Source of the DNA: Reyranella sp.
Lineage (GTDB): Bacteria > Pseudomonadota > Alphaproteobacteria > Reyranellales > Reyranellaceae
DNA: 64,000 nucleotides
Direction of reading: 5' to 3'
Assembly: GCF_004297265.1 (NCBI RefSeq)
Contig: NZ_SCUT01000007.1
Location: 62,001-126,000, forward strand
The translations under genes were made by a program, and so were the position numbers. Within the stretch, counting starts at the first letter, position 1. Each line of letters opens with the position of its first letter. Shown here piece by piece: positions 18,052 to 53,069 of this stretch. The notes beneath the pieces were generated by a model. It did no database searches. It was not told the DNA's origin and saw nothing but the letters and a program-made list of their open reading frames with translations.

Positions 18052-23508
<5,457 letters not shown>

Positions 23509-39348: not shown

Positions 39349-40632
39349 ATGAACGTCCAGACACCCGTCGATCCCACCAACCAGCTCGTCGAACAGGCGC
39401 GCCGCGTCCTGCCGGGCGGCAGCTTCGGCAACATGCCGGCCGAGGTGATCCTCAAGGAGGGCAAGGGCGGCCGGATCTACGACGAGGCCGGCAAAGAATA
39501 TGTCGACTTCCTGCTGGGCTCCGGCCCGATGTTCATCGGCCATGCCCATCCGGAGGTCACGGCGGCGGTGCAGGCGCAAGTGCCGCTCGGCACGACCTTC
39601 TTCGGCAACAACCGTCACGGCATCGCGCTCGCCGAAGCGATCGTCGACGCGGTTCCCTGCGCCGAGCAGGTGCGCTTCGTCTGCTCCGGCACCGAGGCCG
39701 ATCTCTATGCGATGCGCGCCGCGCGCGCTTTCCGCAAGCGCGACAAGATCCTGAAGTTCGAGGGCGGCTATCACGGCATGAGCGACTATGCGCTGGTGTC
39801 CCTGGCGCCCAAGAACCCCGGCAATTTCCCACGCGGCACACTCGATTCGGCCGGCATCCCGAAGTCGGTGGCCGACGAGATGGTGGTCGCGGCCTTCAAC
39901 GACATCGACATGGTGCGGAGCCTGATCGAGGAGCAGAAGGACGAGCTGGCCGGCGTCATCGTCGAGCCGTTCCAGCGCCTGATCCCGCCGAAGCCCGGCT
40001 TCCTGCAGGCGCTGCGGGAGGTGACGGCCGAGCACGGCATCCCGCTGATCTTCGACGAGGTCGTGACCGGTTTCCGCTTCGCCTATGGCGGCGCCCAGGA
40101 ATATTACGGCGTCACGCCCGATCTCTGCACCCTGGGCAAGATCGTGGGCGGCGGTTTCGCGCTGGCGGCCATCGCCGGCCGCGCCGACATCATGAAGCAC
40201 TTCGATCGCCTGGCGATGACCGACGAGGATTTCATCTTCCAGGTGGGCACCCTATCGGGCAATCCGGTGGCCGCCGTCGCCGGCCTCGCCACGCTCGAGG
40301 TGCTGAAGCGCCCGGGCACCTACGAGGGCGTCTTCGCCAACGGCCGCAGGCTGATGGACACGCTGTCGGAACTGCTGAAGAAGCACGGCTTCAAGGCGCA
40401 GGTGATCGGCGAGCCGCCGCTGTTCGACATCATCTTCACCGACCAGCCGATCAAGGACTATCGCGACACGTTGAAGGCCGACACCGCGATCTTGAAGCGC
40501 TTCAACCAGGCCCTGCGCGCCCGCGGCATCATGAAGGGCGACAGCAAGTATTATGTCAGCGTGGCGCACACCCAGGCCGACATCGATCACACGATCGGCG
40601 CGTGGGAGGAGGCGCTCAAGGAGATCAAGTGA
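39349..40632 (+). CDS. Class III (glutamate-1-semialdehyde aminomutase-like) aminotransferase
   Basis: A 427-residue PLP enzyme. It begins QARRVLPGGSFGNMP as hemL-type enzymes do, with FVCSGTEADLYAMRAAR for the phosphate cup, IFDEVVTGFR containing the pyridine-binding Asp, and Schiff-base Lys264 in CTLGKIVGGGF. The usual GSAM signature TTGR-like loop is altered, and the pairing with a cupin rather than heme genes argues for catabolic amino-acid or amino-sugar transamination instead of heme synthesis. A palindromic repeat element follows the stop. Confidence 0.9.
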   Translation: MNVQTPVDPTNQLVEQARRVLPGGSFGNMPAEVILKEGKGGRIYDEAGKEYVDFLLGSGPMFIGHAHPEVTAAVQAQVPLGTTFFGNNRHGIALAEAIVDAVPCAEQVRFVCSGTEADLYAMRAARAFRKRDKILKFEGGYHGMSDYALVSLAPKNPGNFPRGTLDSAGIPKSVADEMVVAAFNDIDMVRSLIEEQKDELAGVIVEPFQRLIPPKPGFLQALREVTAEHGIPLIFDEVVTGFRFAYGGAQEYYGVTPDLCTLGKIVGGGFALAAIAGRADIMKHFDRLAMTDEDFIFQVGTLSGNPVAAVAGLATLEVLKRPGTYEGVFANGRRLMDTLSELLKKHGFKAQVIGEPPLFDIIFTDQPIKDYRDTLKADTAILKRFNQALRARGIMKGDSKYYVSVAHTQADIDHTIGAWEEALKEIK

Positions 40633-40646
40633 GCCGCTGACTCAAA

Positions 40647-40738
40647 GGTCCCTCACTACGTTCGGGATGACACTGTTTTCATCCGCGGCGCACTGCGCCA
40701 ATCCGGAAAAATAGTCATTCCGAACGAAGTGAGGGACC
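40647..40738. repeat. Dispersed palindromic repeat, copy A
   Basis: Left arm GGTCCCTCACTACGTTCGGG... (40647-40671) and right arm GTCATTCCGAACGAAGTGAG... (40714-40738) are inverted repeats with two mismatches over 25 bases, around a 42-base centre. It fills the gap between two convergent genes and is clearly related to copy B at 51144. It resembles REP/REPIN-like or MITE-type mobile palindromes of proteobacteria, with no coding content. Confidence 0.75.
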
Positions 40739-40755
40739 GTTCGTCTCATCCCGCC

Positions 40756-41499
40756 CTACGGACTATCCAGCCCCTTCGACTTCAGGAGCTTGCCGTTTTC
40801 GGGATTGGCCAGCGCCAGCAGGAGCGTGTCCGCCGCGGCGCGGTTGCGGGAGGCCACGGACACGCCGCCGGAATAGATCGTGTAGTTCTGCAGCATCAGC
40901 GGGATCGGGCCGACGAACTGCACCCCCGGCACGCCCATCAGCTCGCTGCTCTGCTGCAGGGCGACGTCGGCCTTGCCATTGACGATCTGCTCGGCAGCCA
41001 GTCCGCCCTGGACCAGCACGCTCCTGGACTTGAGCTGATCGGCGATCCCCATCTGCTGGAAGAGCTGGGCGACGTAGATGCCGCTCGACCCGCCCGAGGC
41101 CGGATCGATGTAGGCGATGGCGCGCGCCGCCAGCAGCGCCTTCTTGAAGCCGTCGGGCTCGGAAATGTCGGGCACCGGCGCACCCTGCTTGATGGCCATG
41201 CCGACGCCGGCGCGGGCCAGTTCCTTGGCGCTGCTCTCGTCGATGCGGTTTCCCAGGAACTGCGCCATCGGGATCGGCGGGATGACCACCACGTCGAAAT
41301 ACTCGCCGGCGGCGACGCGCTTCTGCAGGGCCCCGGTCGTGCCGCTTTCGATCGTCACCTTGTGCCCGGTCTTCTTCTCGAAGTCGGCGACGATCTCGAT
41401 GGCCGCCGGCTTATAGGCGCCGGCGGTCAGCAGCTTGAGGTCGTCGGCCGAGGCGCTTCCTGCGACAAGGGCGAAAAGTAGGACGAGCAGGACGCGCAT
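40756..41499 (-). CDS. ModA-like (molybdate-type) solute-binding protein, orphan
   Basis: A 247-residue exported binding protein: signal MRVLLVLLFALVAGSASA, then DDLKLLTAGAYKPAAIEIVADFEKKTG, the usual ModA opening with the Thr/Ser-rich anion site, followed by YFDVVVIPPIPM and AYIDPASGGSSGIYVAQ. No modB or modC lies nearby. It is the last gene of a minus-strand cluster after the TRAP transporter and panE-like genes, so the ligand may be an organic acid rather than molybdate. Family sure, ligand open. Confidence 0.85.
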   Translation of the reverse strand: MRVLLVLLFALVAGSASADDLKLLTAGAYKPAAIEIVADFEKKTGHKVTIESGTTGALQKRVAAGEYFDVVVIPPIPMAQFLGNRIDESSAKELARAGVGMAIKQGAPVPDISEPDGFKKALLAARAIAYIDPASGGSSGIYVAQLFQQMGIADQLKSRSVLVQGGLAAEQIVNGKADVALQQSSELMGVPGVQFVGPIPLMLQNYTIYSGGVSVASRNRAAADTLLLALANPENGKLLKSKGLDSP

Positions 41500-41506
41500 G
41501 GTTTCC

Positions 41507-42430
41507 TCAGTCTGGCGTGCCCATGATGTAGGGCTTCAATGCAGCATACATCAGCGCGTGTGTCGGTGTCGGGACATTGTGCTTCCGGCCCAGTTCGACG
41601 ACCTTGCCCGACAGCCAGGGCAACTCGATCCGGTTGCCGCGCAGCAGGTCGACCGCCATCGACGCCATCAGGTGCGGCGGGGCATTGCGGTTGAAGTTGA
41701 AGGTCCGTTCGACGATGTCGGCGGGCAGGGTGACGCCCAGGGCGCGGCCGACCGCGGCCACTTCCTCGTAAGCGGCGCCGAACATCGTATTGATGTCGGC
41801 ATCGTCGCGCAGCTTGCCGACCGGCAGGCGGGTGAGCGCCATGACGCCGGCGTTGGAGGCCAGCAGGACGAACTTGATCCAGAGGTCGGTCATGATGGCT
41901 TCGCTCAGGACGCCCTCGATGCCAGCCTTCTTGCACATCTCCTGGAAGGCGACCGCGCGCGGGCTGCGGCTGCCGTCCGGCTCGCCGAATACCATGCGCA
42001 TCACCGTGCCGGTCTGGCGGATCAACCCCGGCTCCGCGATCGTGGCGCTGATATTGGCGACGCCCGGCATGACGGCGCGGGCGCCGAGGATCGGGATCAA
42101 TCGTTCGTGGGCATCGACGCCGTTCTGGAGGGTGATGACGGCGGTGTCGGGTCCGACCATCGGCTTGATCGCCTCGCCGGCGCTCTCGACGTCCCATAGC
42201 TTCACGCAGAACAGCACATAGTCGACCGGGCCGACCTCGGCCGGATTCTCCGTGGCTGTCGTCGGCTGCAGATGGGTGTTGCCACGGACACTCTCGATCC
42301 GCAGCCCGTCCTTCTTCATCGCCGCAAGATGGGCCCCGCGCGCGATGAAGGTGACGTCGGCGCCGGCGTGCGCCAGCGCCGCCCCATAGCCGCCTCCGAC
42401 GCCGCCGGCGCCGACAACCGCAATCCGCAT
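41507..42430 (-). CDS. 2-dehydropantoate 2-reductase (PanE/ApbA) family protein
   Basis: A 307-residue NADPH-dependent reductase. GAGGVGGGYGAALAHAGADVTF at 7-28 is the dinucleotide loop; LCVKLWDVESA, the TLQNGVDA loop, catalytic-type Lys in WIKFVLLASNAG and the C-terminal helical domain are present. True PanE makes pantoate for coenzyme A; many paralogues reduce other 2-oxo acids. Its position in a TRAP-transporter operon favours a catabolic 2-oxo acid reductase (inference). Confidence 0.88.
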   Translation of the reverse strand: MRIAVVGAGGVGGGYGAALAHAGADVTFIARGAHLAAMKKDGLRIESVRGNTHLQPTTATENPAEVGPVDYVLFCVKLWDVESAGEAIKPMVGPDTAVITLQNGVDAHERLIPILGARAVMPGVANISATIAEPGLIRQTGTVMRMVFGEPDGSRSPRAVAFQEMCKKAGIEGVLSEAIMTDLWIKFVLLASNAGVMALTRLPVGKLRDDADINTMFGAAYEEVAAVGRALGVTLPADIVERTFNFNRNAPPHLMASMAVDLLRGNRIELPWLSGKVVELGRKHNVPTPTHALMYAALKPYIMGTPD

Positions 42431-42441
42431 CGAACCGTCTC

Positions 42442-42987
42442 CTATGCCGGGGTGACGCTGCCGACCAGCAGGCAGCCGACGATGCCGCTCAGCCGTGTCG
42501 GCCCGGTGACGTCCAGGCGCAGCGCATAATCCGAAGCCAGTTTGCGCTCCTCGCCTTGCACCGCCACCGTCGCATCACCGTGGGGGCTGTAGGCAATGTG
42601 CGTGCCGGGCTGCAGGACGAGCGTGCGGTCCTCGTCGAGGACGGCGATGTCGACCTTCACCCGGGCGCGGGCGCCGATGAGGTTGACGACTTCCACCGGC
42701 CCGGCCTCCAGCCGGCTCACGATCGGGGTCTCGCCCGTGAAGCGCACGGGCCGGAAGGGCTGGCGCACGTCGATCTCGCCCTGCGGCGTCTGCAGCACCA
42801 ACCCGCTGCCGGAGACGAGGACCTGGACGCGATCGTACCCCGTATAGTCGGAGAAGGGCCCGGGCTGCACGATCGGGGTGCGGCCGAACCGCCAGACATC
42901 GCCCGAGAAGGCGATGTCGACGGTCGTGCCGCCGCCGTTCTTCCACGGCGTGCGGAGATAGCTCGCAGGATCGAGCAGGGTGATCAT
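42442..42987 (-). CDS. HutD/Ves family cupin-like protein
   Basis: A 181-residue double-stranded beta-helix protein. TPWKNGGGTTVDIAF near the N-terminus is the HutD hallmark, followed by SGDVWRFGRTPIVQPGPFSDYTGYDR and RPVRFTGE. HutD is linked to histidine utilisation, probably limiting the pathway by binding an intermediate; Ves is a stress-induced relative. It follows the TRAP receptor gene by ten bases. No hut genes are visible here, so this copy serves another purpose or responds to another metabolite. Confidence 0.85.
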   Translation of the reverse strand: MITLLDPASYLRTPWKNGGGTTVDIAFSGDVWRFGRTPIVQPGPFSDYTGYDRVQVLVSGSGLVLQTPQGEIDVRQPFRPVRFTGETPIVSRLEAGPVEVVNLIGARARVKVDIAVLDEDRTLVLQPGTHIAYSPHGDATVAVQGEERKLASDYALRLDVTGPTRLSGIVGCLLVGSVTPA

Positions 42988-42997
42988 GGGCCGCCCG

Positions 42998-44059
42998 TTA
43001 CGGCGCGAGCGTGACGTTCAGCGTCTTCCCGACCGTATCGTTCCAGGTCTTGACGCAGTCCGGGCCGCAGCGCTTGGCGAAGGACGGCAGGATCGCCTTG
43101 GTGAGCGCGTCCTTGCGCAGGGCCTCGTCGGCGGGCGTGACGGGCACCAGCTTCATGGTGGCGGGTGCGCCCTCGCTGCAGGGGCCGGTGCCGGTGTTGC
43201 AGTTGAGGCCGGTCTGCGTCTCGGTGCGCGCCTGCTCGAAGATCGACTTTTCGAGCTTGTTCAGCTCGGTCTGCAGGAAGGCCTGAACCTTGGGGTCGAG
43301 TGTATTCCACCACTTCAGATTCGCGAGCTGGGCGGCGACGCCGAAATTGACTGGCATGGGCGAAATGAATTTCGCGGCCTCGTGCCACTTCGACTTGTAA
43401 CCCGAGAGCGCGCCGGTGATGGCGCAATCGACCACGCCGCTGGCGAGGGCCGGCTGGACCTCGGCGAAGGCGATGTTGAGCGGCGAGGCGCCGATATGGG
43501 TGACGAACGCCTGCTGCGAGGCGCCCGAGGCGCGGATCTTGCGGCCCTTCAGGTCGGCGATCGTGACGAAGGCATCGCGGCAGTAGAGGACCTGCGCCTG
43601 GTAGGTACCGAAGCCCAGCAGCTTGATGCCGTGCTTCTCCTCGAGGAACTTGGCATAGGCCGGACGGATCGCCTCGATGACCTTCTCGAGTTCCTCGACG
43701 GAACCGACGAGGCCCACCAGGTCGGCGGCTTCGTTCATCGGCACTTCGCCGGAATTGTAGTTCAGCACGGTGGTGGCGAACTGCAGCGTGCCGCTGGAGA
43801 CGAGACGAAATATCTCGGCGCCCTTGAAGCCCAGTTCGGTGAAGGGCTTGACCTGCACCTTGATCGCGCCGCCCGATTCCTTCGGCACGGTCACCGTCCA
43901 GAACGGCACCTCGCGATTCGTGTACATCGACAGGCCGCCGATGCTGCCCACGACGTTGAACGAGGTCGAGGGCAGGGCCGGCGGCGTTTGTGCCACGGCA
44001 CTACCGATGGCGAACGAGCCGGCGAGGGCCGCCGCCGTGACGAGATTCTTCAGGGACAT
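42998..44059 (-). CDS. dctP: TRAP transporter substrate receptor (DctP)
   Basis: A 353-residue periplasmic receptor of a TRAP importer, which uses a sodium or proton gradient and usually moves organic acids. Signal residues 1-23 (VTAAALAGSFAIGSAVA). The conserved ligand Arg is expected in DLKGRKIRASGASQQAF, and CRDAFVTIADL, VQPALASGVVDCAI and LNCNTGTGPCSEGAP show four extra cysteines that could give two disulfides. AGGAGG precedes the ATG. The start is placed at 44059, after the DctM stop. Confidence 0.92.
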   Translation of the reverse strand: MSLKNLVTAAALAGSFAIGSAVAQTPPALPSTSFNVVGSIGGLSMYTNREVPFWTVTVPKESGGAIKVQVKPFTELGFKGAEIFRLVSSGTLQFATTVLNYNSGEVPMNEAADLVGLVGSVEELEKVIEAIRPAYAKFLEEKHGIKLLGFGTYQAQVLYCRDAFVTIADLKGRKIRASGASQQAFVTHIGASPLNIAFAEVQPALASGVVDCAITGALSGYKSKWHEAAKFISPMPVNFGVAAQLANLKWWNTLDPKVQAFLQTELNKLEKSIFEQARTETQTGLNCNTGTGPCSEGAPATMKLVPVTPADEALRKDALTKAILPSFAKRCGPDCVKTWNDTVGKTLNVTLAP

Positions 44060-44078
44060 GCAATCCTCCTTTGAGAAG

Positions 44079-45371
44079 TCAGGCCTTGAGAAGGGCTGGC
44101 AGCCACAGCGCCAGTTGGGGAAAGGCAATGAGGATGCCGATCATGACGATCATCATCACGACGAAGGGCAGCGCACCGATGCAGAGGTCGGAGAAGGCGC
44201 CGGTGCGCCGCACCGCCTGCACCACATAGAGGTTGAGGCCGACCGGCGGGGTGATCAGCGCGGCCTCCATCAGGATCACGAAGACGATGCCCCACCAGAC
44301 CGGGCTGTAGCCCAGCGCCACGATCACGGGCACCACCACCGGCGTGGTGGCGATCATCATGGACAGCGTCTCCATGAAGCAGCCCAGGATCAGGTAGAAC
44401 ACGACGATGGCGACCAGCATGCCGAGCGGCGAGAGACCCAGCGCCAGCACCGTGTCGGTGATGGCCTTGACCAGGCCGATCGAAACCATGACGAAGTTGA
44501 GGAAGAAGGCCGCGATCACGATCAGCATCACCATGCAGGTCGTCCGCACCGTGCCCTCGAAGGCCCGCAGCAGGACCGGTACGGTGAGCTGGCCGTTGGC
44601 CGCGACCAGGCCCAGCGTGGCCATGAGGCCCAGAGCCGCGGCCTCTGTCGGCGTGGCGATGCCGGCATAGATCGACCCCACGACGACGAGAAACAGGCCG
44701 AGCGGCGGCAGCAGGTTCTTGAGGCCCGAGATGCGGTCGTGCCAGAGGTTCGACGTGTCCTGCCTGGGGCCGGCCCATTGCGGACGGAACAGGCAGAGCG
44801 CCAGCACCATCAGGGAGAACAGTCCCGCCAGCATGAAACCGGGGATGAAGCCTGCCGCGTAGAGATCGGCCACCGACGTGTCCGTCAGCACGGCATAGAT
44901 GATCATGTTGATCGACGGCGGGATCAGGATGCCGAGCGTCCCGCCGGCGGCGATCGATCCCAGGAACAGGGGCCGGTTGTAACCACCCTTGTCCATGTTG
45001 GGGATGGCCACCGTGCCGATGGTGGCGGCCGTGGCCACGGAGGAGCCCGAGGTGGCCGCGAAGATCGCGCTCGCCGCGATGTTGGTATGGACGAGGCGGC
45101 CGGGAATACGCGCGAACCACGGCGTCAGGGCCGCGAACAGGCGCTCGCTCATGCCCGACCGGTGCATCAGTTCGCCCATCATGATGAACATCGGCGCGGC
45201 GATCAGGATGAAGTCGTTCGACGAGTTCCAGGCGAGCTCGCCGATCGCGCCGGTCATCGGAAAGAAGGCGTAGCGCTCCGAGAGGACATAGGCCATCAGG
45301 CCGAGCGCCACCGCGACCGGCAGGCTGATCCCCACCAGGACGACGAGCAACGTGAAGGCCGTGCCGATCAT
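44079..45371 (-). CDS. dctM: TRAP transporter large permease (DctM)
   Basis: A 430-residue membrane protein with about twelve helices (opening FTLLVVLVGISLPVAVALGLM). FAATSGSSVATAATIG near 88 and IPPSINMIIYAVLTDTSVADL near 150 are the conserved ion- and substrate-site loops of DctM. Its start overlaps the DctQ stop by four bases and it is followed 19 bases later by dctP, giving the order Q, M, P on one transcript. Confidence 0.93.
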   Translation of the reverse strand: MIGTAFTLLVVLVGISLPVAVALGLMAYVLSERYAFFPMTGAIGELAWNSSNDFILIAAPMFIMMGELMHRSGMSERLFAALTPWFARIPGRLVHTNIAASAIFAATSGSSVATAATIGTVAIPNMDKGGYNRPLFLGSIAAGGTLGILIPPSINMIIYAVLTDTSVADLYAAGFIPGFMLAGLFSLMVLALCLFRPQWAGPRQDTSNLWHDRISGLKNLLPPLGLFLVVVGSIYAGIATPTEAAALGLMATLGLVAANGQLTVPVLLRAFEGTVRTTCMVMLIVIAAFFLNFVMVSIGLVKAITDTVLALGLSPLGMLVAIVVFYLILGCFMETLSMMIATTPVVVPVIVALGYSPVWWGIVFVILMEAALITPPVGLNLYVVQAVRRTGAFSDLCIGALPFVVMMIVMIGILIAFPQLALWLPALLKA

Positions 45372-45982
45372 CGCGGCGATCCGTTCGCTGGCGGGACCTG
45401 TTCCACCCCGGCCTGGGTGATTTCCTCGGCGACGCGCAGGCTGCCGATCAGGGAATCGAAGCCCGGGCCGTCACCTGCCAGAAGGCGCAACGCGGCCTGG
45501 ACGGGCAGCAGGACGGCAACACAGGCGAACCAGAAGATGCCGACCCACCAGATCGACTGCGGCAGTGCCATCGGGGTTTGGAGGGTGGACACCGATTTTG
45601 CATTCATCGCCATGGATTGGGCGACCGTGCCCCAGCAGAACCAGGCGAGCGCGACGGCCAGCAGCGCCAGCGACAGGGCGGCGAGCAGGTCGAATGCAAC
45701 GCGGACGGGTCGCGGAAAGGCATCGAGCAGAATGTCGACGCGGATATGCGTCTTGGAGGTGGTGGCGAAGCCGAGGCCAAGGCCGATGCAGGCGGCCAGG
45801 GCGTAGCCTGACACTTCGAAGCTCTCGACCATGCCGCGTTTGAAGAGAAAGCGGGTGATGACGTCGATGGTGATGAGCCCGCTGCAGCCGATGAGGATGA
45901 TGGCGCCGCCGATCCAGGCGAGGATGCGCGATATGCGCTGAGGCCATGGTTCGGGCGGCAGCAGGCTGGACGACTCACTCAT
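45368..45982 (-). CDS. dctQ: TRAP transporter small permease (DctQ)
   Basis: A 204-residue protein with four helices (ILAWIGGAIILIGCSGLIT; VSGYALAACIGLGLGFATTSKTHIRVDILLD; LLAALSLALLAVALAWFCW; IWWVGIFWFACVAVLLP). The segment TSKTHIRVDILLD is the DctQ hallmark. It is the first gene of the QMP operon; about 100 bases separate it from the PRISE gene, enough to hold its own promoter. Confidence 0.92.
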   Translation of the reverse strand: MSESSSLLPPEPWPQRISRILAWIGGAIILIGCSGLITIDVITRFLFKRGMVESFEVSGYALAACIGLGLGFATTSKTHIRVDILLDAFPRPVRVAFDLLAALSLALLAVALAWFCWGTVAQSMAMNAKSVSTLQTPMALPQSIWWVGIFWFACVAVLLPVQAALRLLAGDGPGFDSLIGSLRVAEEITQAGVEQVPPANGSPR

Positions 45983-46082
45983 TTTGCGAATTTGCTCCCC
46001 CGAACGATGGCGCCCCCGCGGCCATCATGACCCGAGCAATGTCCGGGCCATGTTTCCTTGTAGTCCGTCGCTGCACGGCCCG

Positions 46083-47144
46083 CTAGGGCACGATCTTCTC
46101 CTTGCGGAAGCGGGTCAGCAGGCGCCCGAACATGGTCTCGCTGTCGACCACCTCGTGGAAGCCATGCAGCCGGCTCTTGGTGACATCGGACATCACGTCC
46201 CAGTCCGAACCGAACACATAGTCGGCGAAGGGCCAGGCCACGAGCTGGCCGAAGTCGAACTTCTTCAGCCGGTACTTCTTCGTCATCGCGGCCCACAGTT
46301 CGGCCTTGTCGGCCATGTGCTGGGTCAGGCTGATGGTCTGCAGTTCGCCCACCTTCATGTCGAAGACCTGGGCGATGCGGGGCCAGACGTTGCGCCAGCG
46401 GAAATAGTCGCCGTTGGTGATGTTGTAGGCCTGGTTGGCCGCGCGCTTCTCGGTGGCGGCCCACAGGGCTGCGCTGGCGAAATGCGAGGATTCCGTCACC
46501 TGGTAGATCGTGCCGTACGCGCCGGGCTTGCCGGGAAAGCGCAGCGGAAGTCCGAGTTCCTTCGAGATTGCGGCATAGACGGCGATGGCGGGCATGATGC
46601 TCATGGCGGTGCCGGGCGCGAAGCCGCACAGGGTCTGGGGGCGCAACTCGGTCCAATTCCACCGCTTGCCGCGCTGGAAGCCGGTCAGCCAGTCGATCTG
46701 GTCGAAGTAGAAATCGGGCGGCATGTGGCGCGGATCCGTCTCGCGCATCGGCGTCTTCAGCGGGCCGAGATGCGTGCCGTAGTATTTCGTCCCGGTGACC
46801 AGCACGACGCGCTGCAGCCTGGCCGACGCCCTGGCGATGGCGGTGACGGAGTTCACCAGCATGTCGCGGTTGGGCGCGATCACCGAGGCATAGCCTGCCG
46901 CGTTGCCGGTGCCCGGCTGGAAGGCGGCGTAGAAGACATGCGTGACGTCGCGCAGGTCCGCGAGCTTCGCGGCCACGTCGTCGAGGTCGAGCAGGTCGAC
47001 GGAGACATGGCGATAGCGCGGCCCGTTCTTCTCCGGCCGGCGTGAGAGTCCTATGACCTGCCAGTCGCCCTCGGCCACCAGCCGCTCGACGATGTAGCGG
47101 CCGATGACGCCCAGGGCGCCGACGACGACGGCTTTCTTCCGCAT
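46083..47144 (-). CDS. PRISE-type NAD(P)H-dependent enone reductase (SDR superfamily)
   Basis: A 353-residue extended SDR similar to plant progesterone 5beta-reductase and iridoid synthase. VVVGALGVIGRYIVERL is the nucleotide loop; TGTKYYGTHLGP carries the catalytic Lys and DFYFDQIDWL the catalytic Tyr in the non-SDR arrangement of this group. It would reduce alpha,beta-unsaturated carbonyls. GAGGTAGGAAC precedes ATG 47144. It directly follows the CoA transferase gene by four bases, so enone reduction and acyl-CoA activation may belong to one breakdown route. Confidence 0.85.
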   Translation of the reverse strand: MRKKAVVVGALGVIGRYIVERLVAEGDWQVIGLSRRPEKNGPRYRHVSVDLLDLDDVAAKLADLRDVTHVFYAAFQPGTGNAAGYASVIAPNRDMLVNSVTAIARASARLQRVVLVTGTKYYGTHLGPLKTPMRETDPRHMPPDFYFDQIDWLTGFQRGKRWNWTELRPQTLCGFAPGTAMSIMPAIAVYAAISKELGLPLRFPGKPGAYGTIYQVTESSHFASAALWAATEKRAANQAYNITNGDYFRWRNVWPRIAQVFDMKVGELQTISLTQHMADKAELWAAMTKKYRLKKFDFGQLVAWPFADYVFGSDWDVMSDVTKSRLHGFHEVVDSETMFGRLLTRFRKEKIVP

Positions 47145-47148
47145 GTTC

Positions 47149-48336
47149 CTACCTCGTTGCCGCGACGGTGCCGCCGGCGACCAGCGTATCGATCTCGCTT
47201 GCCGAATAGCCGTGCTCCTCCAGGATCGCGCGGCTGTGCTGGCCGGGCACCGGCGCCTCGGCGCGCGCCGTGCCCGGTTCCGGCGGCAGCATGCCGGGCA
47301 GGGCGGGGACCGGTACTTTCGTCGGCACACCGGCCTGTTCCAGCCAGTGGATCAGGCCGGTTTCCTTGACGTGCGGCTGGTTGATGAAGTCGGCGTAGCT
47401 GTTCAGCCGCTCGTGCATCAGCCTGGCCTCGGTGAGCTTCTCGCTCCAGTGCGCCGAGGACTTGGCCTCGATCATCGGTCGCACGATCGCGTAGAGCGCC
47501 GCTTCGTTGGCGAGCCGTGCCGCCGGGGTGGCGAAGCGTTCCTCATGCGCCAGGGCGGGGACCTCCATCACGCGGCACAGGCTCTGCCAGTCGCTGTCCT
47601 TGAGGGCGAGGATCGACATCCAGCCGTCCGCCGTCCTGAACACGCCCCCGGGCACGCCGCCCGGCTTCATCGTGCCGCCTTCGAGATGGCACGCCATGAG
47701 TCGGATCGACTGCAGCGCCGTCGCCGACTGCATCAGGCTGACGTCGATGTAGCGCCCCTTCGTCTCGTCGCGCCGGGCGTAGAGCGCCGCGCTCACGGCC
47801 TGGAAGGCATAGAGAGCCGTCGACATGTCGACGACGATCACCGGCACGCGATGGGGAATCCCGTCCTCGCCGCGATTCTCCGCCATCAGGCCGGTATAGG
47901 CCTGCAGCACCGGGTCCATCGCCGGCCGTTCGGAGAGCGGGCCGGTCTGGCCGAAGCCCGAGATCGACACGTAGAGCAGGCGGGGCACGCGCGCCGACAC
48001 CGCTTCATAGTCGAAGCCCAGCCGCTTGATGACGCCCGGCCGGAAGCCTTCGAGGAAGATGTCGGCATCCTTCAGCAGGCGCCACACGATCTCCTTGCCG
48101 GCGTCGCTCTTCAGGTCGACGGACAGGCTGCGCTTGCCCATGTTGCCGATGATCGAAAAGGCACTGTGGCTCTCGTAGTGGACGCCCAGGGTGCGCGCCC
48201 AGTCGCCCTCGCCGATCCCCTCGACCTTGATCACCTCGGCGCCGTGCTGGGCCAGCAGCATCGCGCAATAGGGGCCGGCGATGCCCTGGCTCAGGTCGAC
48301 GACTTTTAGGCCGGCGAAGGGCGCGTCGTAGCTCAT
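47149..48336 (-). CDS. Family III CoA transferase (CaiB/BaiF)
   Basis: A 395-residue acyl-CoA:carboxylate CoA transferase. The opening FAGLKVVDLSQGIAGPYCAMLLAQHGAEVIKVEG is classic, and catalytic Asp170 sits in VIVVDMSTALYAFQ; GRYIDVSLMQSA follows as usual. It activates a carboxylic acid as CoA thioester without ATP. Its start overlaps the reductase stop by four bases (ATGA), and the PRISE gene follows, so three genes run as one unit. Confidence 0.92.
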   Translation of the reverse strand: MSYDAPFAGLKVVDLSQGIAGPYCAMLLAQHGAEVIKVEGIGEGDWARTLGVHYESHSAFSIIGNMGKRSLSVDLKSDAGKEIVWRLLKDADIFLEGFRPGVIKRLGFDYEAVSARVPRLLYVSISGFGQTGPLSERPAMDPVLQAYTGLMAENRGEDGIPHRVPVIVVDMSTALYAFQAVSAALYARRDETKGRYIDVSLMQSATALQSIRLMACHLEGGTMKPGGVPGGVFRTADGWMSILALKDSDWQSLCRVMEVPALAHEERFATPAARLANEAALYAIVRPMIEAKSSAHWSEKLTEARLMHERLNSYADFINQPHVKETGLIHWLEQAGVPTKVPVPALPGMLPPEPGTARAEAPVPGQHSRAILEEHGYSASEIDTLVAGGTVAATR

Positions 48337-49346
48337 GCGAGCTTCACCAGCATCTTGCCGAAGTTCTCGCCGCGCAGCAGGCCGATGAAGGCGCGCGGCG
48401 CCTTGTCGATGCCCTCGACGATGTCCTCGCGGTACTTGAGCCGGCCGTCGCGGATCCATTCGCCCATCTGGCGCATCGCCGGGCCGTAATGCTGCGCGAA
48501 GTCGGTGACGATGAAGCCGCGCGCCATCACGCGCTTGCCGACGAAGGTGCCGAGCAGGCGCGGCCCCATCGAGGCGCCGGTCGCGTTGTATTGCGAGATC
48601 GAGCCGCAGAGCGCGACCCGGCCGAAGAAGTTGATGTTGCGCAGGACGGCGTCGGTGATCTCGCCGCCGACATTGTCGAAATAGACGTCGGGCCCGTTGG
48701 GGCAGGCGGCGCGCAGCGCGGCGTCGAGGTCCTTTTCCGCCTTGTAGTCGATGCAGGCATCGAAGCCGAGCTCGTCCTTCACGAAGGCGCACTTCTTCGC
48801 GCCGCCGGCGATGCCGACGGTGCGGCAGCCCATGATCTTCGCGATCTGGCCCACGACCTGGCCGACCGCACCGGAGGCCGCCGACACCACGACCGTCTCG
48901 CCGGGCTTGGGCTGGCCGACATGCAGCAGGCCGAAATAGGCGGTCATGCCCGGCATGCCCAGTACGCCATTGGCCGTCGAGATCGGCGCCAGCGAGGGAT
49001 CGACCTTGCGCAGGGCCGGGCCGCCGCCGATCGCGTATTCCTGCCAGCCGAGACGATCCTCGACGATGTCGCCCACCTTGAAGTCCGGGTTCTGCGAGAC
49101 CACGACCTCGCCGACCGTGCCGCCGGTCATCACTTCGCCGAGACCCACGGGCGAGGCGTAGGAGGCGGCATCGCGCATGCGGCCACGCTGATAGGGATCG
49201 AGCGAGAGGTAATGCACCTTCACCAGAACCTCGCCATGGCGCGGCTCGGGCACCGGCACTTCCTCGACGCGGAAATCGGATTCGGCGGGCTCGCCGGGTG
49301 GGCGACGCACGAGGACGACGCGGCGGTGCGTTTTGGGGATGGTCAT
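48333..49346 (-). CDS. NADP-dependent medium-chain enone/alkenal reductase
   Basis: A 337-residue zinc-free medium-chain dehydrogenase of the YncB/leukotriene B4 12-hydroxydehydrogenase group. YLSLDPYQRGRM near 50 and VSAASGAVGQVVGQIAK near 150 mark it; FDNVGGEITDAVL follows. It reduces carbon-carbon double bonds conjugated to a carbonyl. First gene of the CoA transferase operon, divergent from the enolase-superfamily gene with 60 bases between starts. Confidence 0.9.
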   Translation of the reverse strand: MTIPKTHRRVVLVRRPPGEPAESDFRVEEVPVPEPRHGEVLVKVHYLSLDPYQRGRMRDAASYASPVGLGEVMTGGTVGEVVVSQNPDFKVGDIVEDRLGWQEYAIGGGPALRKVDPSLAPISTANGVLGMPGMTAYFGLLHVGQPKPGETVVVSAASGAVGQVVGQIAKIMGCRTVGIAGGAKKCAFVKDELGFDACIDYKAEKDLDAALRAACPNGPDVYFDNVGGEITDAVLRNINFFGRVALCGSISQYNATGASMGPRLLGTFVGKRVMARGFIVTDFAQHYGPAMRQMGEWIRDGRLKYREDIVEGIDKAPRAFIGLLRGENFGKMLVKLA

Positions 49347-49406
49347 GAGCGGTTGCCTCCGATTTGCTTTGGGGCCCACCATAGCGCGGGTTTTGCAGGA
49401 GCTGCC

Positions 49407-50543
49407 ATGCCGACGATCCGCCGTCTTTCGTTCATCGGACTCGAATATGCCTTCGCGCCGGAGAAAGCCTACGGCATGTCGCGCGGCGGCGGCTTCCGCC
49501 GACAGGGCGGGCTGGTCGAGGTCGAGACCGACCAGGGCGTGACGGGAATCGGCGAGGCCTTCGGCAATCCTCATGTGACGCGGGAGTATTTCCGCATGCT
49601 CGAACCGATGTTCCTGGGCCGCAGCATCTTCGACTTCGATCATGTTGAGGCCCGGGTGCGCAACGCTATCTATCACCTGGGCGTCGGCAACCAGCTCACC
49701 TCCTGCCTCGCAGGCATCAATGTCGCTTTGTGGGACGCGATGGCACGCGGCTTCGGCGTGAGGATCTGCGACCTGATCGGCGGCTGCGGCACGACGCGCT
49801 TCCCGGCCTATGCCTCGACCGGCTTCTTTTCCGACGATCCCGACCGCCAGCTCGAACACATGATGGCGGAGGCGGCTTCCCATCCCTATGCCGGCGCCAA
49901 GATCAAGATCGGTCGCGGCATCAGGAACGACGTCGAGCGCGTGAAGCTTGCCCGCGAAGCGCTGGGACCGGACAAGCTGCTGCTCGTCGACATCAACGGT
50001 GCCTATACGGTCGACGTGGCGCTGGAATGCGCCCGCGCGATCGAGCCGTTCAATATCCACTGGATCGAGGAGCCTCTGCCGCCGGGCGACTTCCGCGGCT
50101 ACGCCGAGCTGCGAGCGCGCTCGCCGATCGCGCTGGCGGCCGGCGAAGCCCACCATACCGTCCGCGACTTCCGCGCGCTGATCGACGGGCGCTGCATCGA
50201 CATCGTGCAGCCCTCCATTCCCGGCGTCGGCGGCATCACCGAGGCCAAGCGCATCGTGGCGCTGGCGCATGCGCAGAACCTGCGGGTCGCACCGCATGTC
50301 TGGGGCGGTGCCGTGGGTCTCGCGACGGCCTGCCATTTCCTCGCGGCGCTGCCGGCGACGCCGCACACCGAACATCCGCCGCACCCCTCGATGCTGGAAT
50401 ACGACATGAGCGACAACGAGCTGCGCACGAAGCTCCTCGAGACGCCGCTCAAGCTCGAAGCCGGGCACATCCTGTTGCCGGAAGGCCCTGGCCTCGGCAT
50501 CGAACTCGATCGGGATGCCGTCGAACGCTACCGGATCTGCTGA
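49407..50543 (+). CDS. Mandelate racemase/muconate lactonizing family enzyme B
   Basis: A 378-residue enolase-superfamily enzyme, distinct from the one at 30.9 kb. Metal ligands are probably Asp in LLVDINGAY, Glu in WIEEPLPP and Glu in AAGEAHH; base Lys in AKIKIGRG (K-x-K), and late His in VAPHVWGGAVG. The K-x-K plus HxW pattern points to racemases or sugar-acid dehydratases of the mandelate racemase group. A long open frame extends upstream but belongs to the antisense of the reductase gene. Its TGA overlaps the ATG of the ydeI-like gene. Confidence 0.88.
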   Translation: MPTIRRLSFIGLEYAFAPEKAYGMSRGGGFRRQGGLVEVETDQGVTGIGEAFGNPHVTREYFRMLEPMFLGRSIFDFDHVEARVRNAIYHLGVGNQLTSCLAGINVALWDAMARGFGVRICDLIGGCGTTRFPAYASTGFFSDDPDRQLEHMMAEAASHPYAGAKIKIGRGIRNDVERVKLAREALGPDKLLLVDINGAYTVDVALECARAIEPFNIHWIEEPLPPGDFRGYAELRARSPIALAAGEAHHTVRDFRALIDGRCIDIVQPSIPGVGGITEAKRIVALAHAQNLRVAPHVWGGAVGLATACHFLAALPATPHTEHPPHPSMLEYDMSDNELRTKLLETPLKLEAGHILLPEGPGLGIELDRDAVERYRIC

Positions 50544-51141
50544 TGGCGCCGGTCACGGTAGACCCGGACAAGGTCCGCGAGTTTGCGACGGAAGCCAGCT
50601 TCTACAGGTGGCTGGGCAAGCATCACGACGCGGAAAGCGAAGTCTGGATCAGGATCCACAAGGTCGGCTCCGGCCTGAAGTCGATCACGCCGAAGGAGGC
50701 GATCGACGTCGTCCTGTGCTGGGGCTGGATCGACGGCATCCGCAAGGGCCTCGACGAGACGAGCTTCCTGCAACGTACACGCCGCGTGGCCGCAAGAGTG
50801 TCTGGAGCCAGATCAACGTCGACAACGTCGCGCGCTTGGTCGAGGCGGGCCGCATGACCGAGCATGGGCTGAAGCAGGTCGAGGCGGCAAAGCAGGACGG
50901 CCGCTGGGACCGTGCCTATCGAAGCAAGGACTCGAAGATCCCGGACGACCTGCAGGCGGCCATCGACGCCGAGCCCAAGGCGAGGGCCATGCTGGCCATG
51001 CTCAGCGCCCAGAATCGCTTCGCGTTGGTCTTTCGGACGCAGAACATGAAGACCGAGGCGGGGCGGAAGAAGAAGATTGCTTCCTTCGTCGAGATGCTGA
51101 AGCGCGGCGAGACGATCCATCCGCAGGGGAAGAAGAAGTAG
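50543..51141 (+). pseudogene. Frameshifted YdeI/OmpD-associated family gene
   Basis: Two in-register pieces of one protein: from 50543 MAPVTVDPDKVREFATEASF through CWGWIDGIRKGLDETSFLQR, then in the next frame from 50776 YTPRGRKSVWSQINVDNVAR to MLKRGETIHPQGKKK. In intact YdeI-like proteins these segments are joined as FLQRYTPR..KS.WS.IN. One base is missing between 50774 and 50776. The family includes peptide-resistance and bacteriocin-protection proteins. Either a recent one-base deletion or an assembly error; all other parts look undamaged. Confidence 0.82.
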
Positions 51142-51143
51142 CG

Positions 51144-51245
51144 AAAGGTCCCTCGCTTTCGCTCGGGATGACATTGTTTTTGTCATCGACGCACCTGCGC
51201 CGATTTCAACAATGTTGTCATCCCGAGCGTAAGCGAGGGACCTTT
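51144..51245. repeat. Dispersed palindromic repeat, copy B
   Basis: The 30-base arms AAAGGTCCCTCGCTT... (51144-51173) and the inverted copy ending ...GCGAGGGACCTTT (51216-51245) match at 29 of 30 positions, with a 42-base centre. It sits directly after the ydeI-like stop and before the end of a convergent permease gene. Same family and same centre length as copy A at 40647. Could also serve as a bidirectional terminator. Confidence 0.8.
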
Positions 51246-51259
51246 GTCGCCTTCGTGCG

Positions 51260-52129
51260 TCAGCGCAACGTCGGATCCAACCGGTCACGCAGCCAGTCGC
51301 CCAGGAGGCTGATCGACAGGGTCGTGAGGACGATCGTGGCGGCCGGGGCCAGCATGATCCACGGCGCGTGGCTGATGTATTCGCGGCCATAGCCCACCAT
51401 GTTGCCCAGAGAGGCGAGTGGCGGCTGGACGCCGAGGCCGAGGAACGACAGGCCGCTCTCCAGCAGGATGATCTCGGGGAAGGTGAGCGTCATAGACACG
51501 ATCAGGGTCGAGGCGATGTTGGGCAGGATGTGCAGGCCGTAGATGCGGGCCGGGCTCGCGCCGAGCTGGCGGATCGCGGCGGCATAGCCCTGCTCGTTGG
51601 CGGCGAGCGTAAGGCCGCGGGAGATGCGGGCGTAGCGTTCCCAGGAATGGAAGCCCATCAGCGCGATGAACAGCGGCAGGCTGTTCCCCAGGAAGGCCAG
51701 CACCGCCAGAGCGATGATCATGAAGGGCATGCTGGCCTGGAAGTCGATGGCCATCAGCACGACCTGTTCGACGGCCCTGCGGAAGTGCGCGGCCAGGAAG
51801 CCCAGCGCCGTGCCGAGCGTTGCCGCGATGATCGTGCCGAAGAAGGCGATCAGCAGGCTCATGCGGATCGACATGATGAGACGCGAGAGCACGTCGCGGC
51901 CGAGTTCGTCGGTGCCCAGCGGATGGGCCCAGGTGCCGCCCATCAGGGCCGGCGGTGCGAGGCGCGCCTTGAGATCGAGCGCGGTGATGGAATAGGGCAC
52001 GAGAAAATCCGCGCCCAGCGCCGTCACGATCATCAGCGCGAGCCAGGCCAGCGCCAGGATGACACCGAGCGGCAGGGCGGGGAGCCAGCGACGGATGGCA
52101 GGAGCGGGCGCGCGTTCGGCGATGGCCAT
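51260..52129 (-). CDS. dppC: Peptide/nickel-type ABC permease 2 (DppC)
   Basis: A 289-residue permease, last gene of the importer operon. N-terminal cytoplasmic tail of about 15 residues, TM1 LPLGVILALAWLALMIVTALG, the DppC hallmark LGTDELGRDVLSRLIMSIR, and EAA loop NEQGYAAAIRQLGASPARI. It would pair with DppB. Copy B of the palindromic repeat lies 15 bases after its stop. Confidence 0.9.
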   Translation of the reverse strand: MAIAERAPAPAIRRWLPALPLGVILALAWLALMIVTALGADFLVPYSITALDLKARLAPPALMGGTWAHPLGTDELGRDVLSRLIMSIRMSLLIAFFGTIIAATLGTALGFLAAHFRRAVEQVVLMAIDFQASMPFMIIALAVLAFLGNSLPLFIALMGFHSWERYARISRGLTLAANEQGYAAAIRQLGASPARIYGLHILPNIASTLIVSMTLTFPEIILLESGLSFLGLGVQPPLASLGNMVGYGREYISHAPWIMLAPAATIVLTTLSISLLGDWLRDRLDPTLR

Positions 52130-52139
52130 GCTGCTCCTC

Positions 52140-53069
52140 CTAGTGCGCCGCGGCCGAGCCGCGCACGCGCGGATCGAGCCAGCCATAGGCCAGGTCGACG
52201 GTGAGGTTGGCCATCACCATCCAGGCCGCGATCACCATCAGGATGGCCTGCACGACGGCGAGGTCGCGGTTGGCCACGGCCGACACCAGCAGCCGGCCGA
52301 CGCCCGGCCAGGAGAAGACGCTTTCGACGACGACGGCGCCGGCCACCAGGCTGCCCACCATGAATCCGATGATGGTCACGGTCGGGATGGCGGCATTGGG
52401 CAGCGCATGGCGGGTCACGACGGCGTGCCAGGTCACGCCCTTGGCCGAGGCGGCGCGGATATAGGGCTGGCCCAGGACTTCGAGCATGGCCGAGCGCGTG
52501 AAGCGCGCCATGATCGCGGCGCCCCCGGTGCCCAGCGTGATGATCGGCAGGATGGCGGAGGAGATCCCGCTGCTGCCGCTGGCCGGCAGCCAGCCGAGCT
52601 GCACCGCGAACACCAGCACCAGCAGCAACGCCAGCACGAAACTCGGCATGGTGAAGCCCGCGACCGACGCCGCCATGGTCAGCCGGTCGGCCATCGAGTT
52701 GCGATGCAGCGCGGCATAGATGCCGGCGGGAATGCCGAGGCCGATCTTGAGCGCCAGCGCCGGCAGGGTGATGGCGAGGGTCGCCGGCACTCTTTCCATC
52801 ACGAGGTCGATGGCCGGCCGCCCGTCGCGCATCGACTTGCCGAAATCGCCCGTGAGGGCATGGCCGATATAGGACAGGTACTGTTCCCAGATCGGCTGGT
52901 TGAGACCCCAGGACTCGCGGAAGGCGGCAATCGCCTCGGGCGGCGCGTCGACCGACATGATGAGCAGCGCCGGGTCGCCCGACAGCCGCAGCACCACGAA
53001 GGCGAAGGTCATCACGAACAGGATGGTGAGGCCCGCGCGCAGCAGGCGCGAGGTGGCGAACATCAGCAT
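52140..53069 (-). CDS. dppB: Peptide/nickel-type ABC permease 1 (DppB)
   Basis: A 309-residue permease with six helices; TM1 LLRAGLTILFVMTFAFVVL then LSGDPALLIM, and EAA loop QPYIRAASAKGVTWHAVVTRHALPNA. The start ATG 53069 overlaps the DppF stop (ATGA); a second ATG at 53063 is possible. Ten bases separate it from dppC. Confidence 0.9.
   Translation of the reverse strand: MLMFATSRLLRAGLTILFVMTFAFVVLRLSGDPALLIMSVDAPPEAIAAFRESWGLNQPIWEQYLSYIGHALTGDFGKSMRDGRPAIDLVMERVPATLAITLPALALKIGLGIPAGIYAALHRNSMADRLTMAASVAGFTMPSFVLALLLVLVFAVQLGWLPASGSSGISSAILPIITLGTGGAAIMARFTRSAMLEVLGQPYIRAASAKGVTWHAVVTRHALPNAAIPTVTIIGFMVGSLVAGAVVVESVFSWPGVGRLLVSAVANRDLAVVQAILMVIAAWMVMANLTVDLAYGWLDPRVRGSAAAH

Follow-up and report, generated by a model that had tools for sequence, protein, structure and literature searches.

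A TGTC-tagged tail-to-tail hairpin element at convergent gene ends of Reyranella that probably belongs with the CGTC-type REPs

The window (the whole 64,000-nt stretch of Reyranella DNA that was analysed) contains two copies, A and B, of an intergenic palindrome (Table 1). The first-pass annotation had placed both copies after stop codons between convergent genes, which is borne out by the flanking genes, and it had put copy A at 40647-40738, where we indeed find its bounds, with GGTCCC from 40647 and GGGACC up to 40738. Compared with five relatives, the YdeI/OmdA-like gene to the left of copy B carries a one-base frameshift near 50775, which may reflect a pseudogene or a sequencing error. Elsewhere in the window, at 20876-23107, a GC-rich, coding-looking stretch consists of eight tandem copies of a 276-nt unit that are 81-89% alike (the last one 62%).

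Table 1. Copies A and B of the palindromic element, their parts and the flanking genes (window coordinates)
Feature	Position	Strand	Basis
Gene left of A: aminotransferase class III, glutamate-1-semialdehyde aminomutase-like	39349..40632	+	called gene, profile match
Copy A, whole tail-to-tail palindrome (92 nt)	40647..40738	.	sequence, folding, centre comparison
Copy A, left hairpin unit, TGTC-tagged, read on the - strand	40647..40672	-	arm pattern and sequence
Copy A, centre (41 nt), with GGCGCACTGCGCC	40673..40713	.	sequence, centre comparison
Copy A, right hairpin unit, tag here AGTC	40714..40738	+	arm pattern and sequence
Gene right of A: solute-binding protein, weakly ModA-like	40756..41499	-	called gene, profile match
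Gene left of B: YdeI/OmdA-like, 3' part; stop 51139-51141	50815..51141	+	comparison with relatives
Copy B, whole tail-to-tail palindrome (96 nt)	51147..51242	.	sequence, folding, centre comparison
Copy B, left hairpin unit, GAAA loop on the TGTC strand	51147..51173	-	arm pattern and sequence
Copy B, centre (42 nt)	51174..51215	.	sequence, centre comparison
Copy B, right hairpin unit, GTAA loop	51216..51242	+	arm pattern and sequence
Gene right of B: ABC transporter permease	51260..52186	-	called gene, profile match

Both copies share the same architecture, in which two hairpin units are set tail to tail around a centre of 41-42 nt that is itself palindromic. The arm pattern GTCATYCCGA..GAGGGAC has four matches in the window, every one within A or B, and none in 100 dinucleotide shuffles. 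The tag reads TGTC in three of the four arms and AGTC in the right arm of A, and the loops on the TGTC strand are GTA and GAA in copy A, GAAA and GTAA in copy B. The + strand of copy A folds with -59.2 kcal/mol (z -9.0) and that of copy B with -74.5 kcal/mol (z -12.4), values equalled by none of 200 shuffles in either case, and on both strands of both copies folding far exceeds that of the shuffles. The two copies had been proposed to share their arms and a 42-base centre; the arms are indeed common to both, whereas the centres, at 41 and 42 nt, are related and not identical. An Rfam search of 40400-51500 with E up to 1 gave three sub-threshold matches, none of them on A or B.

The structure of a single unit was examined in the hairpin-rich relative G016, where 107 units were collected from 400 kb with the anchors TGTCAT[CT]C and GGA[TC]C. 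The arm follows the consensus TGTC-ATCCC-GA-stem-GNA-stem-GA-GGGAY, with a compensating inner stem and conserved GNA or GNNA loops. GA stands opposite GA in 94 of the 107 units, and 90 of these 94 have an inner stem of 2 bp or more, compared with a mean of 72.6 and a maximum of 82 in 500 shuffles. The inner stems are of the types GC/GC (66), GGC/GCC (13), AC/GT (6) and GCC/GGC (5), and thus show compensating changes. On the TGTC strand, 57 of 70 triloops are GNA, while 13 of 18 tetraloops are GNNA and 9 of 18 GNRA. The first stem pair, intact in the ATCCC..GGGAT of the G016 units, is broken in A and B, which have ATCCC..GGGAC. According to PMC4686876, a DNA mini-hairpin is extraordinarily stable when it combines a GNA or GNNA loop with two or more G-C pairs, and by analogy the GNA/GNNA mini-hairpin in the arm points to recognition as single-stranded DNA; the remaining alternative is that the hairpin may be recognised as RNA. 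In a published table in PMC2817692, some enterobacterial REPs of the GTAG type show a GC-GNA-GC core as well, so the loop is not special to the TGTC class.

The host genome (G000) comprises 6.02 Mb in 66 contigs. A BLAST search with copy B returned 27 rows at 12 sites, and a scan with a one-unit pattern gave 23 matches (reversed control 0) that added four further sites, making 16 in total. These 16 are five tail-to-tail pairs (A, B, C23:181403, C64:59652 and C62:88252), six head-to-head pairs, one of them decayed, and five single units. The genome search for further members thus yielded 16 sites, five of them of the A/B type, and the absence of further copies that would have refuted the family was not observed; the dozens to hundreds that had been forecast are too many for this genome and fit several relatives. 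By orientation of the neighbouring genes, 11 of the sites are convergent, five tandem and none divergent, and all five tail-to-tail copies were called convergent; these calls come from a simple codon-usage gene caller, which missed the frameshifted gene left of B, and some neighbours lie more than 500 bp away (at C64, C56 and C62:76705). Measured against the window background, in which 9 of 52 gene pairs are convergent, 11 of 16 corresponds to a binomial p of 8e-6, which shows an excess of the element at convergent gene ends.

We then compared orthologous sites in relatives. For site B, 20 regions were fetched and both flanks were present in eight of them: three (G031, G015 and G043) have a bare junction of 12 nt without a hairpin, one (G034) has the element, one (G045) a decayed element and one (G008) 32 nt, and the remaining two hold other palindromes, which in G025 has a CATCCTGA..GAAGGATG frame with a CCTC tag and in G035 is unrelated. 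The G025 palindrome, a CCTCATCCTGAGGAG.. form that stands in place of copy B (locus L342), is not plainly unrelated and may be a cousin of the element with a CCTC tag. For site A, 30 loci were compared and both flanks were found in 23; ten of these, with strong divergence or with other or long inserts, were left unscored. Four genomes (G000, G025, G027 and G059) carry the element at this site, and G034, G015, G043 and G035 carry a variant that has TCATCCTGA..AGGACC stems, one arm of which is broken by another hairpin in G043. In G008 a remnant of some 35 nt is seen, G031 and G017 show collapsed traces, and G038 and G039 have nothing of it. Filled and empty sites occur in genomes with flanks 82-96% alike. 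The comparison of empty sites that had been proposed therefore shows that members of the genus differ in whether an orthologous site holds the element, as presence versus absence and not as gain versus loss. The palindrome found at one convergent junction varies between relatives, which speaks more for landing places that are tolerated than for a function that is required.

To follow the hairpin beyond this genome, we searched 146 genomes with the one-unit pattern. Matches were found in 73 of 75 members of the family, which is probably Reyranellaceae, with 0-811 matches per genome, whereas 11 of the 71 non-family genomes had 1-3 matches, near chance as judged by the reversed control (0-2 per genome). 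Together with the filled and empty sites, this range supports the idea of a dispersed, mobile-like palindromic family. Tight head-to-head pairs with CCC/GGG or CCT/AGG stems, as distinct from the tail-to-tail element, reach other phyla, in at least 120 stretches with one genome counted per species. Among the matches listed are Luteimonas, Pseudoxanthomonas, Nevskia, Porticoccus and a Francisellaceae MAG, as well as MAGs of Acidobacteria/Terriglobia, Chloroflexi, Gemmatimonadetes, Pirellulales, Bacillota and Propionibacteriaceae; single MAG occurrences could be explained by binning errors. Within the family, the first 400 kb of G016 (L142-L161, C1:1-400000) hold 104 of the approximately 320 hairpins of this 5.44-Mb genome. 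Both Y1 genes of G016 lie in or near this hairpin-rich part, and its GC skew shows no clear switch across the 400 kb.

Like REPINs, which are built from GTAG REPs and linked to RAYT transposases, the element consists of two inverted short hairpins and a spacer and is dispersed in intergenic DNA, and the first-pass annotation had suggested this type along with a check for a RAYT. A search of the 66 contigs of the host genome for Y1_Tnp (PF01797) found no match, and a family RAYT profile (A2) accepted none of 38 candidates. The family does possess such genes: 70 Y1 genes are spread over 41 of the 75 genomes, most of them encoding a short, family-specific protein, and when five of the proteins were scored against the NCBIfam model for REP-associated tyrosine transposases, two passed, one reached 78.7 against a cut-off of 80 and two scored 62-66. 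An ordinary REPIN, moved in trans by a RAYT whose gene the host has since lost, would fit with several of the counts. The number of Y1 genes correlates with that of the TGTC hairpins (Spearman 0.53, genomes taken as independent points; partial correlation 0.43 with the other hairpin allowed for), the median number of TGTC-hairpin matches is 71 in genomes with a Y1 gene and 21 in those without (G034, in which a finer profile shows a RAYT fragment, is counted among the latter), and 15 of the 17 genomes with at least 100 matches have a Y1 gene. Loss of the enzyme is also plausible, as a second hairpin family, GAGCGNNNCTGGAGNNNCGCG, has 119 strict matches in the host genome (none in the window); these matches to a RAYT-linked hairpin suggest that a RAYT was probably present there once. 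It is this second hairpin (GCGNNNCTGGAGNNNCGC), however, that lies within 500 bp of 33 of the 70 Y1 genes, whereas the TGTC hairpin does so in one and lies 1.5-3.8 kb away in four more (all 70 loci were read, some of which end at contig ends). The second hairpin correlates with Y1 number as well (Spearman 0.50, partial 0.40), and the two hairpins themselves correlate only loosely in number (Spearman 0.35). Moreover, G002 and G043 have 113 and 134 matches and no Y1 gene by two profiles, and the element has TGTC or AGTC in place of the GTAG tag. With no RAYT found here and the family's Y1 genes adjoining a different hairpin, the REPIN reading is unsupported, and we regard it as unlikely; the RAYT, demoted by its proximity data from mobiliser to rival and still favoured by the correlations, does not seem to be the enzyme responsible for the spread of the element. 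The host itself, with few copies and no detected Y1 gene, looks like a quiet one.

The other type that had been suggested, a MITE, would make the palindrome the core of a larger element bounded by GGGCWATCGCATRTGA and moved whole by the transposase of a DDE-type insertion sequence. The element resembles MITEs in its length of 100-200 nt, its inverted repeats, its lack of coding capacity and, often, an outer inverted repeat. The five tail-to-tail copies of the host genome were aligned together with 20 further ones, taken from at least about 40 similar places; the core is well conserved across these 25 copies, and 16 of them carry, within three edits, the motif CTATCGCATATGA outside the palindrome (chance 1 in 2000). 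A tail-to-tail unit with a conserved centre, often flanked by the outer motif of a larger palindromic mosaic, is what is new here. We found the outer repeat GGSCWATCGCATRTGA in 27 of 91 genomes; at 16 of 30 loci read (two of which are the same place) an inverted partner lies at a distance of 69-248 nt, and the palindromic cores enclosed in this way are of various kinds. A mosaic of nested palindromes with the outer repeat GGGCWATCGCATRTGA is seen in L382-L411, which also includes long CGTC-tagged forms, e.g., L386, L390 and L411. On the other hand, the outer repeat encloses other palindromes too, and reading as much as 1.6 kb of the sequence next to each of the 30 loci revealed neither a partner farther off nor an autonomous element. 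Among the local copies only C64 passes the outer-motif test; B, C23:181403 and C62:88252 have no clear outer motif and A has traces at most. Unlike in MITEs, no parent insertion sequence was found, and no target duplication was visible by eye between filled and empty sites A and B, where the flanks carry other changes too. What speaks for the MITE proposal is thus the outer motif in 16 of 25 copies, set against the absence of a detected transposase or target duplication, and we consider it improbable. A kept, useful element, acting as a two-way transcription terminator or as a protector of mRNA 3' ends between convergent genes, would agree with the orientation of the 16 sites (convergent in 11, divergent in none) and with AAAGG..CCTTT flanking a very stable stem on both strands. 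The stem is followed by only three Ts, though, and five sites are tandem; it was the hairpin-free 12-nt junctions of G031, G015 and G043 that lowered termination as a main function, and we find this explanation very unlikely.

The closest described relatives are found in a 2013 survey that split REPs into GTAG and CGTC super-families (Di Nocera, De Gregorio, Rocco; PMC3733652). In its account, CGTC repeats have no dedicated transposase, none having been found beside them, TGTC and CCTC are variants of the CGTC tag, with TGTC common, and the way in which these repeats spread is left open. A CGTC REP is described there as a stem of 8-9 bp opening with complementary A/T, a loop of 4-5 nt and an unpaired tail that is mostly (not always) CCA, and the families as predominantly head-to-head dimers, tail-to-tail ones being rare and with variable spacers. 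Set against the text descriptions of the four CGTC families in this source, the element agrees in its TGTC tag, its short loop and its dimers, and likewise in its intergenic position near gene 3' ends and between convergent genes; its stem also starts with AT, with the first pair kept in the G016 units but broken in A and B; CGTC REPs are also said there to be frequent in alphaproteobacteria. It further resembles them in the near absence of adjoining transposase genes of the Y1 class: the hairpin lies within 500 bp of one of the 70 Y1 genes, as given above, and no Y1 gene turned up in the 866 kb that make up the 120 cross-phylum stretches, in a search whose positive controls were recovered in 60 of 60 and 8 of 8 chosen cases. 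In contrast, its stem holds a GA/GA internal loop, its tail is CTTT instead of CCA, and tail-to-tail dimers with a conserved centre, which the survey calls rare, are common here. Head-to-head and tail-to-tail pairs are about equally frequent in the host genome (6 versus 5), unlike in CGTC REPs, while G016 fits the described pattern, with 17 simple head-to-head clusters and eight tail-to-tail ones in its first 400 kb. The available part of a 2025 REP survey (PMC12306157) mentions neither RAYT nor Reyranella. Literature searches for intergenic palindromic repeats of Reyranella gave nothing relevant among the matches listed, and a search with the arm sequence gave no arm match, only a nine-letter term hit, among the matches listed.

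Altogether, we consider it rather probable that copy A represents an intergenic palindromic element which is non-autonomous and functions in the manner of the CGTC/TGTC-tagged REPs, with which it probably belongs, and not of the RAYT-linked ones. Membership in this class, as judged from sequence features, is probable. Its two TGTC-tagged hairpins face each other tail to tail across a conserved centre that is itself a palindrome. In the mechanism that we propose, some enzyme that is not the RAYT of the family would recognise each unit in the form of a hairpin of single-stranded DNA and copy it in trans. The unit may move within a larger palindromic mosaic, as its core, and insertions would survive where neither genes nor promoters are broken. 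It is tempting to speculate, although we hold this wider idea to be doubtful, that the TGTC/CGTC repeats form one trans-phylum mobile class, whose ticket would be a single-stranded mini-hairpin with GA/GA and a GNA loop, whose mover would not be a RAYT, and which would also travel inside mosaics bounded by GGGCWATCGCATRTGA. The Reyranella family makes the spread of CGTC repeats testable, as two hairpin families occur in it side by side, Y1 genes come and go, the number of hairpins ranges from 0 to 811, and both empty and filled sites exist.
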